From: Bacillota bacterium
Lineage (GTDB): Bacteria; Bacillota; UBA4882; UBA10575
Direction of reading: 5' to 3'
Assembly (NCBI GenBank): GCA_012838955.1
Contig: DUOH01000020.1
Coordinates: forward strand, 1-56,218
Length of the DNA stretch: 56,218 nt
This document shows, piece after piece, positions 2,873 to 31,642 of the stretch; position 1 is the first letter of the stretch, and every line of letters begins with the position of its first letter. The notes beneath the pieces were generated by a model, which saw nothing but the letters and a program-made list of their open reading frames with translations, made no database searches and was not told the DNA's origin. The translations under genes and the position numbers were made by a program.

Positions 2873-4273
2873 ATGAAAGGCATCAAAACATCCCTGGTCA
2901 GACGCGGAAGTTTGTTGTTGGCGCTGATGGTAACGGTTTTTCCGGTCCTCGCGTTCACGGCGTCGGCCCGGGCAACAGAAGCGGAGCCAACCATTAAGGT
3001 GATGACCTTGAACCTGCATAACGGCAGGGATCTGCAGGGGAGGGATAATCTTCAGCGCTTCTTGGAGCTTCTGGCAGAGGAAGAGCCGGACCTGGTCGCC
3101 CTCCAGGAGGTGGAAAGGCGTCATCTGGAGATTTTGCAGTCTACCGGCTGGAACGTGGCGGTCGGCTTTAACGCCAACCGTCCGGACTTTCGTTTTGGAA
3201 ACGTGGTGATGACTCCCCACCGTATTGTCTATGAACGCCACCATTATCTGCCGGGGGAATTGGAACAACGGGGAATCAACGAGGTGGCGGTGGAGATCAA
3301 CGGCCGGTACTTTTATGTGCTCAATACCCACCTGGGACTGAGTAGAGTGGAACGGGAGGGACAAATGGCAGAGATTCTTCGGATCGCGGATTATTTGGAA
3401 GGGCCGCTCTTACTGACCGGCGATTTTAATGTCGGATCTTATGATGCGCTCTTTACCATGCTGCCTCCGGGTTTTGCCGAGGCTGGAAACGTATTTGACT
3501 TACCCAACACCTTTCCTCTGTCCAATCCGAAGTACCGTATTGACCTGATCTGGTTCTCACCGGACTGGGAGCCCCTGGGCGGGCAGGTCTTGCCGTGGGA
3601 ACATTCGGATCATTTACCGGTCACCGCCGAACTCCGACTGAAAACCGGCGCGGGCGCGGACCGGGCTGCAGAGCCCAAGCGGGTGCAGATTCCGGCGTAT
3701 GATTGGCAATACCATCCTGTACTGCCCGACGTCGGAAGAAGGAGCGGAGCAGCGGAGTTTTCCTTCCGGGGCACTGGGAACCAGGGCCTTTCCTCCGCCC
3801 GGCTCACCGTACCCATCTGGCCTGCGCTGTCCTTTACCGGAGTGGTTACTCGGGCGGACCCGGCCTCCGGCCAGTCGGATGCTGATGATGAAGCCAGGTT
3901 GATTGTGGATTATTACTTTAAGGAACTGGACTTCCGGGATTACTTTTCTTTACTGGGTTACCGGGGAAGAGCGGAGTTTTCCTTATTTGCCGAGCACACC
4001 CCGGAGCAGAGGGGGGCCTTTGGCCTCAAGCAGTATTATCGGTGGAGTAATCGGTTGGGGACCAGTTTAATCACGGGGTTTTCCGATAAGTTCTTCTGGT
4101 CTGTGGAAGGCGCCTATCTGCCTACGGAGCGGATCGGCTGGCAACTAAAGATTGATCGGGAGGGGGACTTCTCCACCGGGGTCTCGTATACCGTCAATAA
4201 GCATCTGGTGATCAAGACCAGTTATTCTCTGTCAACGGAGAAACTCACCTTAACCCTGGGGTTCTATGAATAG
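2873..4273 (+). CDS. Secreted endonuclease/exonuclease/phosphatase-fold protein with C-terminal beta-barrel-like domain
   Basis: This 466-aa protein starts with a signal peptide (KR-rich start, hydrophobic residues about 12-30, ASA-x-A cleavage region). Residues about 40-260 are an EEP (DNase I-like) domain: TLNLHNGRD, LQEVERR, NTHLG, LTGDFN and the final EHSDHLPV carry the expected metal-binding and catalytic Asn, Glu, Asp and His residues. Residues about 285-466 are different: repeated 8-11 residue strands with alternating hydrophobic and polar residues and aromatic edges, ending LTLTLGFYE, as in outer-membrane beta-barrels. The substrate (nucleic acid, phospholipid or sugar phosphate) cannot be told. 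The start ATG follows GGGGGA. It is a single gene, with a terminator at 4279-4303. The EEP call is firm; the barrel is inference from pattern. Confidence 0.8.
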   Translation: MKGIKTSLVRRGSLLLALMVTVFPVLAFTASARATEAEPTIKVMTLNLHNGRDLQGRDNLQRFLELLAEEEPDLVALQEVERRHLEILQSTGWNVAVGFNANRPDFRFGNVVMTPHRIVYERHHYLPGELEQRGINEVAVEINGRYFYVLNTHLGLSRVEREGQMAEILRIADYLEGPLLLTGDFNVGSYDALFTMLPPGFAEAGNVFDLPNTFPLSNPKYRIDLIWFSPDWEPLGGQVLPWEHSDHLPVTAELRLKTGAGADRAAEPKRVQIPAYDWQYHPVLPDVGRRSGAAEFSFRGTGNQGLSSARLTVPIWPALSFTGVVTRADPASGQSDADDEARLIVDYYFKELDFRDYFSLLGYRGRAEFSLFAEHTPEQRGAFGLKQYYRWSNRLGTSLITGFSDKFFWSVEGAYLPTERIGWQLKIDREGDFSTGVSYTVNKHLVIKTSYSLSTEKLTLTLGFYE

Positions 4274-4278
4274 TAAAA

Positions 4279-4303
4279 AAACCTCCCAGAAGGGAGGTTT
4301 TGT
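4279..4303. terminator. Bidirectional rho-independent terminator
   Basis: A 9-bp stem (aaacctccc at 4279-4287 with gggaggttt at 4292-4300) and 4-nt loop lies between two convergent genes. An A-run sits on the left, so it acts best as a terminator for the minus-strand gene but serves both. Confidence 0.75.
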
Positions 4304-4324
4304 GCCTACCGGGGGTGTAGGCGG

Positions 4325-4687
4325 TTATAAAACATTAATATTCCAGTTTTGGCCGTTGTTGGTGTCCCAGTTCCCCGCGGGATCTTTGAAACAGAAATTT
4401 ATCTCCCGCTCTCCCTCGAAATAGACGTCCACCCCGAAACTGCCGTCTTCCTCTTTTTCCATCTTTACGGTTTTACCAGGAGTCTTCCAACCGTCAAATC
4501 CGTAGTGCAGAAAGACTTCATTCGCACCGGATTCCTTCAGCAAGCCCTGGTACTTAATGCGAAAGGAATCTACTGAGCGGTTCAGGTCCGAAGAGACCGA
4601 GACGCGGTAATCCGCTAAGGCGCCAAACTCATAATTGTTTTGGGGATTAAATCGTAAAGCCTTCTGCATTCTTTTGACCAAGCCCAT
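4325..4687 (-). CDS. Stand-alone starch-binding module (CBM25-like)
   Basis: This 120-aa protein has no signal peptide. Residues about 50-120 match the CBM25-type carbohydrate-binding fold: NEVFLHYGFDGW, then ...KMEKEEDGSF, then INFCFKDPAGNW and the closing DTNNGQNW motif, whose aromatic residues normally contact alpha-glucan. The first 45 residues are a short polar stretch of unknown role. The start is set by a very strong site, AAAGGAGGTG, 6 nt before the ATG. Such modules usually sit in secreted amylases; here it is alone and apparently cytoplasmic, so it may bind glycogen or act as a regulatory subunit. It is monocistronic and convergent with the preceding gene. Confidence 0.8.
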   Translation of the reverse strand: MGLVKRMQKALRFNPQNNYEFGALADYRVSVSSDLNRSVDSFRIKYQGLLKESGANEVFLHYGFDGWKTPGKTVKMEKEEDGSFGVDVYFEGEREINFCFKDPAGNWDTNNGQNWNINVL

Positions 4688-5162
4688 GCTTACACCTCCT
4701 TTACCTTATTATCTATTCTTCCACCTAAAGCCCTAAATCTGTAGGTGAATGATTACCGATTTCGACAAATGTTGTGAGCACCGCTCCGGTAGGCAGCGGG
4801 CTCTGCTGCCGTTCGCCGGTGGCAGGCGTAAAGCAAGAAGAGCCGAAGTCATACTCGGACTTCGACTCTTCAATCCATAAGAGGTGAAGGGTAAAAGAAA
4901 CTCGTACAGTTAATTACCACCCTGACCTCTGATGGAGTATTTATATATTAACCGGATTTTTCAGGCGCAAACATGGAAAATTCTGAGACTTTTTCGCAGC
5001 TAGGCAGGTTTGTCCGATTATATGCAGAATATTGGTGAATAGTAAGGACGGTGGGCCGTGTCAATCCGCCGGACTGCGGAGAAGAGGGACCGGACGGCGC
5101 CAGACCGGATGGTGACCGCAGGCGGAAGCGGCTGCTCAAAGTAGGAAGAGGAGGAATACTGG
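4688..5162. other. Intergenic region with one long inverted repeat
   Basis: There is no convincing gene. It holds a stem-loop at 4837-4871 with 14-nt arms (gaagagccgaagtc / gacttcgactcttc, one mismatch) and a 7-nt loop, not followed by a T-run. The leader of the following alcohol dehydrogenase lies at the right end; I see no clear promoter. Confidence 0.5.
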
Positions 5163-6326
5163 ATGGAGAATTTTGTCTTTCAGAACCCGACGAAGATTAT
5201 TTTTGGGAGAGACACCGAGCGGCAAGTGGGGATGGAAGTCAAACAGTATACGGATCGGGTCTTGCTGCATTACGGCGGAGGCAGTATCAAAAAGAGCGGC
5301 CTCTATGACCGGGTGGTCGCATCGCTGAAAGAAGCCGGGGTCGACTTTGTTGAGCTCTCCGGAGTGCAGCCGAATCCCAGGATAGGTTTGATCAGAGAAG
5401 GAGTTGAGCTCTGCCGGAAACACGGGATCCGGTTTATTCTGGCGGTGGGCGGCGGCAGTGTCATCGATTCGGCGAAAGGGATCGCCGTCGGTGTGCCGTA
5501 TGAGGGGGATGTCTGGGATTTTTACCTGCAAAAGGCAGTCGTGAAACAGGCTTTGCCTGTCGGTGTGGTGCTGACGATTCCGGCGGCTGGAAGTGAAACA
5601 AGTCCGGCCAGTGTGGTTACGAACGAGGAGGGCGCTTTGAAGCGGGACATCGGCACGGACCTGATCCGACCTAAGTTTGCCATCCTCAACCCGGAGCTCA
5701 CCTTTACGCTACCACCGTACCAGACTGCTTGCGGGGCGGCGGATATTATGGCCCATGTGATGGAGAGGTACTTTACCAGAGTGAAGGAGACGGATCTAAC
5801 GGACCGGCTGTGTGAGTCCACCCTTAGGACGGTGATTAAGTATACTCCCCTGGCTTTGCAGAATCCTACGGACTATGCGGCCCGGGCCGAGCTGATGTGG
5901 GCCAGTACGGTGGCGCATAGTGATTTGTTGGGCACCGGACGGATCGGGGACTGGGCTTCGCACATGATCGAACACGAGCTCAGCGGGATCTATGACGTGG
6001 CGCACGGGGCCGGTTTAGCCGTGGTCTTTCCGGCCTGGATGCAATACGTCTACCAAGAGGATGTGCGTGTCTTTGCCAAATTTGCCACCCGGGTCTGGGG
6101 GGTGGAGCCTGACTTTGCTGATCTGGAAAGCACAGCCCTGGCCGGTATTGAGCGGGTGAAGGATTTCTTCCGCTCCATTGGGCTGCCAGTGACTTTGACT
6201 GAGCTTAAGATAGGGACGGACCGGCTGGAGGAGATGGCTGCCAAGTGCACGGAGAGGGGGCCGGTGGGGAACTTTAAACGGCTGGATCGGGAAGACGTGC
6301 ACCGGATTTACCGGTTGGCCTTGTGA
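5163..6326 (+). CDS. Iron-containing alcohol dehydrogenase (BdhA/YqhD type)
   Basis: This 387-aa group III NAD(P)H-dependent alcohol dehydrogenase interconverts aldehydes (butyraldehyde-like) and alcohols. GGGSVIDSAKG (about residues 94-104) is the coenzyme-binding stretch, with Asp, His and His metal ligands in AADIMAHVME, ASHMIEHELSG and DVAHGAGLAVV. The full length equals that of family members such as butanol dehydrogenase and YqhD. The ATG follows AGGAGGAA. It is transcribed alone or with the polX gene 79 nt downstream. In a fermenter it would regenerate NAD(P)+ by reducing aldehydes; whether the cofactor is NADH or NADPH cannot be decided here. Confidence 0.92.
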   Translation: MENFVFQNPTKIIFGRDTERQVGMEVKQYTDRVLLHYGGGSIKKSGLYDRVVASLKEAGVDFVELSGVQPNPRIGLIREGVELCRKHGIRFILAVGGGSVIDSAKGIAVGVPYEGDVWDFYLQKAVVKQALPVGVVLTIPAAGSETSPASVVTNEEGALKRDIGTDLIRPKFAILNPELTFTLPPYQTACGAADIMAHVMERYFTRVKETDLTDRLCESTLRTVIKYTPLALQNPTDYAARAELMWASTVAHSDLLGTGRIGDWASHMIEHELSGIYDVAHGAGLAVVFPAWMQYVYQEDVRVFAKFATRVWGVEPDFADLESTALAGIERVKDFFRSIGLPVTLTELKIGTDRLEEMAAKCTERGPVGNFKRLDREDVHRIYRLAL

Positions 6327-30957: not shown

Positions 30958-31054
30958 TAGTGATCTAAAGGTAACTAAATATTTTGGCAGGAAATCTGAG
31001 AGATGTACCGAAAAAATAATAAGATAACGCATAAAAAATATGGGGCGGTTGAAA

Positions 31055-31642
31055 ATGAAGAAAAACCTATTTATCCTGATTATGCTCCTTTCTCTTTTAG
31101 TATCATGCGTGGTTTACGGAGCGGGCTTTGGTTCCGACTCAAAATTTGCGGTGATTGACTTGAATCAGATAAAACAAGAATCCCTTGCCTATCAAAGGCT
31201 GGAAGAGGATGTCAGAAAACTCGGAGAGGAACTGGAAGAGTATAAGGGTGAGATCTTAACCGTGCACACCAGGAAAGTAAGGGAACTGACTGCCGAGTAT
31301 GAAGCCGCAGTAGCCGGTAAGAGCGGGGATGAGGCTGAGCGGTTGCGGAAGGATTATCAGAAAAAAGTGCAGGAACTGGCGGAAGAAGCCCAGAAAAAAA
31401 TGGATACAAAGCAAAGGGAGTTAGAGTTGATCCAGGAAGAGAAGAATCTGGCGTTTAATGAAAAATTAGATGCCGCTGTTTTGAGGATGGTAAATAGATG
31501 GAATTTATCATGTGTGCTGCATAAGGGCGGAGTAACGGTTGGCGGCAGGGATATTACCAAGACGGTGATGAAGCGGATTGATAAGGAGTATAAGCCTTCT
31601 TTCTGGAGCAGGATCTTTGGGAGAAAATCTTCTGTTAATTAG
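31055..31642 (+). CDS. Skp/OmpH-family periplasmic chaperone-like protein
   Basis: This 195-aa exported protein has a signal peptide with a possible lipobox (SLLVSC). The mature part starts KFAVIDLNQI, the classic OmpH beginning, followed by a long charged coiled coil (about residues 45-130: KLGEELEEYKGEI..., KKVQELAEEAQKKMDTKQRELELI) and a short beta-rich end (CVLHKGGVTVGGRDIT). Skp holds unfolded outer-membrane proteins in the periplasm of diderm cells. Position and length match. No BamA or lipid A genes are in view. The ATG at 31055 is preceded by GGGGCGG. Several Bacillota with outer membranes carry such genes, but the fold also occurs in other exported proteins. Confidence 0.75.
   Translation: MKKNLFILIMLLSLLVSCVVYGAGFGSDSKFAVIDLNQIKQESLAYQRLEEDVRKLGEELEEYKGEILTVHTRKVRELTAEYEAAVAGKSGDEAERLRKDYQKKVQELAEEAQKKMDTKQRELELIQEEKNLAFNEKLDAAVLRMVNRWNLSCVLHKGGVTVGGRDITKTVMKRIDKEYKPSFWSRIFGRKSSVN

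Follow-up and report, generated by a model that had tools for sequence, protein, structure and literature searches.

A 466-residue protein of a diderm Bacillota bacterium joins, in a single chain, a predicted secreted phosphodiesterase to a C-terminal domain with the modelled fold of a small outer-membrane β-barrel. Our computational analysis finds two domains, an intact active site, a barrel fold, a diderm genome and a conserved fusion of single origin. We think it fairly probable that the protein is an outer-membrane-anchored phosphodiesterase, likely facing the periplasm. The outer membranes of Bacillota are central to the debate over whether the last bacterial common ancestor was a diderm, and to our knowledge few outer-membrane proteins have been described from Bacillota lineages other than Negativicutes. 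The fusion offers a defined, testable example of an enzyme tied to the outer membrane in largely uncultured bacteria.

Architecture and spread of the fusion

The window, that is, the whole 56,218-nucleotide stretch of DNA that was analysed, carries the gene as a 466-aa open reading frame (ORF) on the + strand, exactly at 2873–4273, with an ATG start and a TAG stop. Its parts are listed below with the evidence for each.

2873–4273, + strand: whole gene, comprising signal peptide, EEP phosphodiesterase domain, linker and 12-stranded barrel domain (ORF list, sequence and five full-length homologues)
2873–2974, + strand: predicted Sec signal peptide, residues 1–34 (read from the translation; cleavage probably after ASARA)
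2990–3640, + strand: EEP (DNase I-like) catalytic domain, residues 40–256 (PF03372 match, structural matches and residue invariance)
3419–3430, + strand: GDFN catalytic motif, residues 183–186 (alignment of homologues)
3605–3613, + strand: SDH catalytic motif, residues 245–247 (alignment of homologues)
3641–3736, + strand: linker, residues 257–288, a coil ending in the conserved P-x-LPD (pLDDT of about 40 for residues 260–289)
3737–4270, + strand: predicted C-terminal outer-membrane β-barrel domain, residues 289–466, 12 strands (models, PDB matches and amphipathic alternation)
3929–3943, + strand: DFRDY, residues 353–357, centre of the conserved 13-residue turn that joins strands 4 and 5 (alignment; assigned to the periplasmic side)
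4031–4045, + strand: QYYRW, residues 387–391, at the end of strand 6 (invariant in six full-length homologues; assigned to the periplasmic end)
4241–4270, + strand: last strand, KLTLTLGFYE, residues 457–466, at the position of the C-terminal β-signal (strand 457–465 in the model)
4281–4302, + strand: hairpin followed by a T-run, terminator-like, immediately 3′ of the stop codon (read from the sequence)

At the N terminus, direct reading of the translation gives a KR-rich n-region, a hydrophobic core and an A-x-A motif where ASARA meets TEA, and an N-terminal hydrophobic segment is also present in all five homologues (5/5). The PF03372 match that follows spans residues 44–247 of 466 and the complete profile (positions 1–225 of 225; E 1.9e-18), scoring 67.4 bits against a curated cut-off of 24.5. 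Eight catalytic or metal-binding positions (N47, E79, H153, D184, N186, D224, D246 and H247) are invariant in six homologues, and the catalytic residues correspond to positions mutagenised in Rv0888 (PMC4733049); judged by sequence, the active site of the EEP domain is intact. Fold searches with the full-length model, which are dominated by the EEP domain and uninformative on the barrel, matched this domain to 4ruw (Z 28.4) and also to Tdp2, nSMase and exonuclease III. The enzyme is predicted to hydrolyse phosphodiester or phosphomonoester bonds. The substrates of EEP members range over nucleic acids, lipids and sugar phosphates, and no one substrate is indicated for the window enzyme.

A search of 61 related genomes returned five full-length homologues, 35–40% identical and from the same order or class. 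Pairwise matches reach residues 440–452 of the window protein, and the C-terminal domain is therefore homologous by direct search; in the homologue alignment, mean pairwise identity is 51% for the EEP domain and 27% for the barrel domain. By profile search the C-terminal domain occurs in 7 of the 29 genomes of the class, in one case as a contig-end fragment, and in a 398-genome sample of the phylum no genome outside the class matched. As a control, EEP-only proteins of the same class stop 2–18 residues past the EEP domain, which argues that the C-terminal domain was added to the enzyme and does not belong to it. A tree built from 32 EEP domains groups the fused proteins in one clade (100/100 support), and a single fusion event is enough to explain them. 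No conserved gene neighbourhood was found around the homologues. At one of them (L041:582–2998), PhoU and Na/Pi cotransporter-like genes lie divergently upstream; this pair is not repeated at the others, and we claim no link to phosphate starvation. The recurrence of 2-oxoacid oxidoreductase genes near L041, L132 and L133 seems to reflect common descent in a single family.

The C-terminal barrel domain

A profile scan (E up to 1) gave no Pfam match outside the EEP domain of the window protein, a Pfam scan of the ~178-residue C-terminal domain gave nothing credible at E up to 10, and comparison of the barrel-domain profile with PDB chain sequences gave chance matches only. On these searches, the domain represents a new barrel family, one without a Pfam model.

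AlphaFold, applied to the whole window protein, places consecutive antiparallel strands after residue 292, with confidence of 80–90 from residue 400 and pLDDT below 50 for residues 333–366. Modelled alone, the barrel domain forms a 12-stranded up-and-down β-structure (pLDDT 83, pTM 0.75), with the caveat that the lead of this model is the homologue L043 (L010 and L043 are one protein), the window sequence being included in the alignment; the barrel domain of L043 is ~26% identical to that of the window protein, and the high-confidence model is the homologue's. The alignments behind the models are shallow (6–7 sequences). Strand order agrees between the two models, and the strands, 12 in number, are 7–12 residues long.

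Top Foldseek matches in the PDB are almost all outer-membrane barrels (NanC at 2e-5, FapF, KdgM and COG4313). Structural alignment gave Z 18.8 both for KdgM (2.0 Å over 154 of 178 residues) and for FapF (2.1 Å over 170 residues), 16.3 for NanC, 12.5 for OMPLA and 14.3 for a designed 12-stranded transmembrane barrel. From the near-whole-domain alignment to closed outer-membrane barrels we infer that the modelled barrel, of 12 antiparallel strands, is itself closed.

The amphipathic pattern expected of such a barrel was also sought by a column-averaged β-alternation test, which is independent of any structure library. It gave z 4.6 against shuffles over residues 285–466 and 0.1 for the EEP domain; on the strands of the AlphaFold model, alternation reached z 5.9, equalled by 0 of 5,000 shuffles. 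In the window protein, 42 of 56 lipid-facing positions are hydrophobic and two charges occur among them, whereas the lumen-facing positions are hydrophobic in 15 of 54 cases and carry 14 charges (7 K/R, 7 D/E). Lipid-facing positions are almost uncharged in all homologues; the charges at lumen positions are balanced and vary across the full-length homologues (2–10 K/R and 4–10 D/E). The last strand of the window protein, LTLTLGFYE, is a less canonical β-signal than those of the homologues; the signal is textbook in L010/L043 and L008/L041 and extended in L007. Homologue C-terminal ends are rich in aromatic residues (WQFGWSYRW, WQIRWSYQY), and another ends in WNYSI.

These results support a small, transmembrane-type outer-membrane barrel. 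An earlier note on this DNA had described a complete EEP domain with a signal peptide, followed by about 180 residues of alternating strands, each of 8–11 residues, that resembled such a barrel. The full-profile PF03372 match and the visible Sec signal peptide bear out the first part of that description and the alternation scores the second; the modelled strands cover a slightly wider range of lengths, and structure prediction returned a transmembrane-type 12-stranded barrel, not a sandwich or jelly roll.

Host envelope and position of the enzyme

The source genome (2.52 Mb, 98% complete, 0.01% contamination) encodes four Omp85 proteins: two BamA-like with POTRA domains, one short and one patatin–Omp85 fusion. 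A TamB of 1,600 residues adjoins BamA, and OmpH/Skp, LpxC, LpxD, LptF/G and LptA/LptC/LptD_N-type proteins are also encoded. BAM machinery and a periplasmic chaperone are thus present (two POTRA–Omp85 proteins, OmpH/Skp and TamB). These genes lead us to expect an outer membrane, as does the presence of Omp85 throughout the class (29 of 29 genomes), which as a whole appears diderm. The earlier remark that Bacillota rarely have an outer membrane holds generally but apparently not for this class, and the outer-membrane assembly genes, which the same note had proposed seeking, are there. Among Bacillota, diderm members have been described in Negativicutes, Limnochordia and Halanaerobiales (PMC10628300).

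A compact cluster (L124:880–19576; G000:C45) contains LptA/LptC-type, LptF/G-like permease, LpxD, Skp, BamA and TamB genes, adjoined by a gene for a 638-aa protein. The LptD barrel model PF04453 has no match in the source genome; LptD would here either have diverged strongly or correspond to a candidate in the cluster, a 739-aa protein at 4030–6249 (− strand) of L124 with a sub-threshold LptC match only. A second OmpH/Skp-like gene, distinct from the copy in the cluster, lies in the window at 31040–31642 (PF03938, E 6.8e-11). Elsewhere in the genome, a peptidase MA/β-propeller gene is directly followed by the short, 379-aa Omp85 gene (L127:7136–10013; G000:C18), possibly as a two-gene outer-membrane unit, and short Omp85 proteins of ~370–450 aa occur in several related genomes. 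Next to lpt genes, L126:461–1906 (G000:C14) encodes a candidate OmpM-type tether of 481 aa, whose N terminus matches SLH weakly (E 0.015) and whose C terminus is barrel-like. The patatin–Omp85 protein (743 aa, PlpD-like; L129:1655–3886; G000:C66) is a second, unrelated enzyme–barrel fusion of the source genome.

The membrane side and the substrate class given below, like a channel role for the barrel, are inferences. In the mechanism we propose, Sec would export the protein, the BAM machinery would fold the C-terminal 178 residues as a small transmembrane barrel of 12 strands, and the ~30-residue linker would keep the N-terminal EEP domain tethered to it, the enzyme most likely lying on the periplasmic side, next to the inner surface of the outer membrane. 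Candidate targets would be envelope lipids or LPS, or else phosphorylated nutrients or nucleic acid on their way into the periplasm. Even-stranded outer-membrane barrels have both ends in the periplasm; with 12 strands, the N and C termini of this barrel would lie on the periplasmic side, and the enzyme would then most likely be periplasmic as well. Pairwise identity is 0.35 in the assigned periplasmic halves of the strands versus 0.19 in the outer halves (sign-flip p 0.004), and 0.47 in periplasmic turns, 0.45 in the linker and 0.15 in outer loops. The turn between strands 4 and 5 is the best-conserved part of the barrel domain (D353, R355, D356, Y357, S359 and R364 invariant), P282, L284 and P285 of the linker motif are likewise invariant, and the P-x-LPD linker, the D-x-RDY turn and QYYRW appear to form one face beside the enzyme. 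The outer loops of outer-membrane proteins are generally variable, so a conserved periplasmic face is not enough on its own to locate the enzyme on that side. PlpD, an outer-membrane protein with an N-terminal enzyme and a C-terminal barrel, has been shown to keep that enzyme in the periplasm (PMC11116518), and the source genome has a patatin–Omp85 fusion of its own; the behaviour of PlpD and the conserved face together favour periplasmic placement.

The C-terminal domain might instead be a soluble β-rich binding domain (a β-sandwich, jelly roll or calycin-like barrel) on a protein that is merely secreted, a reading compatible with the lack of a sequence match to any outer-membrane protein family, one weak Foldseek match to a DUF3598 protein and a final strand that is not a textbook β-signal in the window protein. 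We consider this very improbable, because the fold match lists are full of closed outer-membrane barrels (Z up to 18.8 over almost the whole domain), lipid-facing positions are almost charge-free in all homologues, the homologues' C-terminal strands are aromatic and the hosts are strictly diderm. The main rival reading is that the barrel serves, as in type Va autotransporters, to help the EEP domain across the outer membrane, leaving the enzyme displayed on the surface or released, as in EstA. Autotransporters have the same order of parts (signal peptide, enzyme, linker and C-terminal 12-stranded barrel) with the enzyme outside, the barrel aligns with NalP and BrkA (Z 15.3 each) and with EstA and EspP (14.9 each), and the ~30-residue linker would be long enough to span it. 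However, 12-stranded barrels that are not autotransporters fit better (KdgM and FapF), and the linker is a proline-containing coil, of low confidence and with no helix in either model. The Pfam scans (E up to 1; E up to 10 for the domain) gave no autotransporter β-domain match, and the barrel has ~178 residues where the autotransporter domains compared have ~245–305. A literature search for EEP autotransporters found none, and we judge surface display or release unlikely.

An enzyme-coupled pore like that of SpmT overlaps with the anchored phosphodiesterase and adds conductance: a narrow channel of the KdgM/NanC type, whose tethered EEP domain would process passing substrate or free products for uptake. 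The nearest folds belong to small, specific porins (KdgM, NanC and an oligogalacturonate porin), the lumen positions are polar and charged in the window protein, and the channel part of SpmT is reported to transport glucose and phosphocholine (PMC4827864). Yet the lumen charge is balanced without being conserved, the lumen may be plugged, either by the linker or by the conserved turn of 13 residues, and a common fold does not show conductance; we see a channel as possible, if on balance doubtful. In a bolder form, which we offer as a rather unlikely speculation, the protein would be the founder of an enzyme–porin family in diderm Bacillota, in which a minimal ~178-residue, 12-stranded barrel with an evolved docking face (P-x-LPD, DLRDY and QYYRW) would hold the phosphodiesterase where its own channel opens into the periplasm, to process entering substrate. 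The anchored, probably periplasmic phosphodiesterase remains the reading that we prefer.

Relation to known systems

SpmT/Rv0888 of Mycobacterium tuberculosis is the nearest functional analogue of the window protein, and PlpD and EstA are the nearest architectural ones. SpmT is listed as a fusion of an EEP domain with an outer-membrane channel (TCDB 1.B.79, PMC4827864) and described as a putative pore–sphingomyelinase fusion (PMC4827864, PMC6712060), so a fusion of this kind, which was new to the earlier note, has a precedent, although the one known EEP–channel fusion has the opposite domain order. Both proteins combine an EEP-family hydrolase and a putative outer-membrane pore domain in one chain, with corresponding catalytic residues. 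In SpmT, however, the pore is N-terminal and the EEP domain C-terminal (PMC4827864), whereas here the enzyme precedes the barrel; its membrane is the mycobacterial outer membrane (Actinobacteria), and its family is listed with ~8 predicted strands against 12 here.

PlpD and the patatin–Omp85 proteins, one of which the source genome encodes, likewise place an N-terminal enzyme before a C-terminal outer-membrane barrel, but consist of a patatin lipase, POTRA and a 16-stranded Omp85 barrel in place of an EEP domain and a 12-stranded barrel without POTRA; patatin, POTRA and Omp85 Pfam matches are absent from the window protein. EstA and the type Va autotransporters share the succession of parts, yet EstA is a GDSL esterase, and autotransporter barrels are longer, with a Pfam match that the window protein lacks and a linker helix that neither model, of low confidence in the linker, predicts for it. 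KdgM and NanC, with FapF the closest barrel folds (Z 16.3–18.8), carry no fused enzyme, and sequence identity of the three to the barrel domain is 7–9%. Secreted EEP-only proteins of the same class (for example L014, L026 and L027) share the EEP domain, several with a signal peptide, but have no barrel and fall outside the fused clade. Outer-membrane enzyme–barrel fusions are therefore already known as a kind; new here are the barrel family and, for EEP enzymes, the domain order, which suggests that such fusions arose repeatedly, from varied enzymes and varied barrels.
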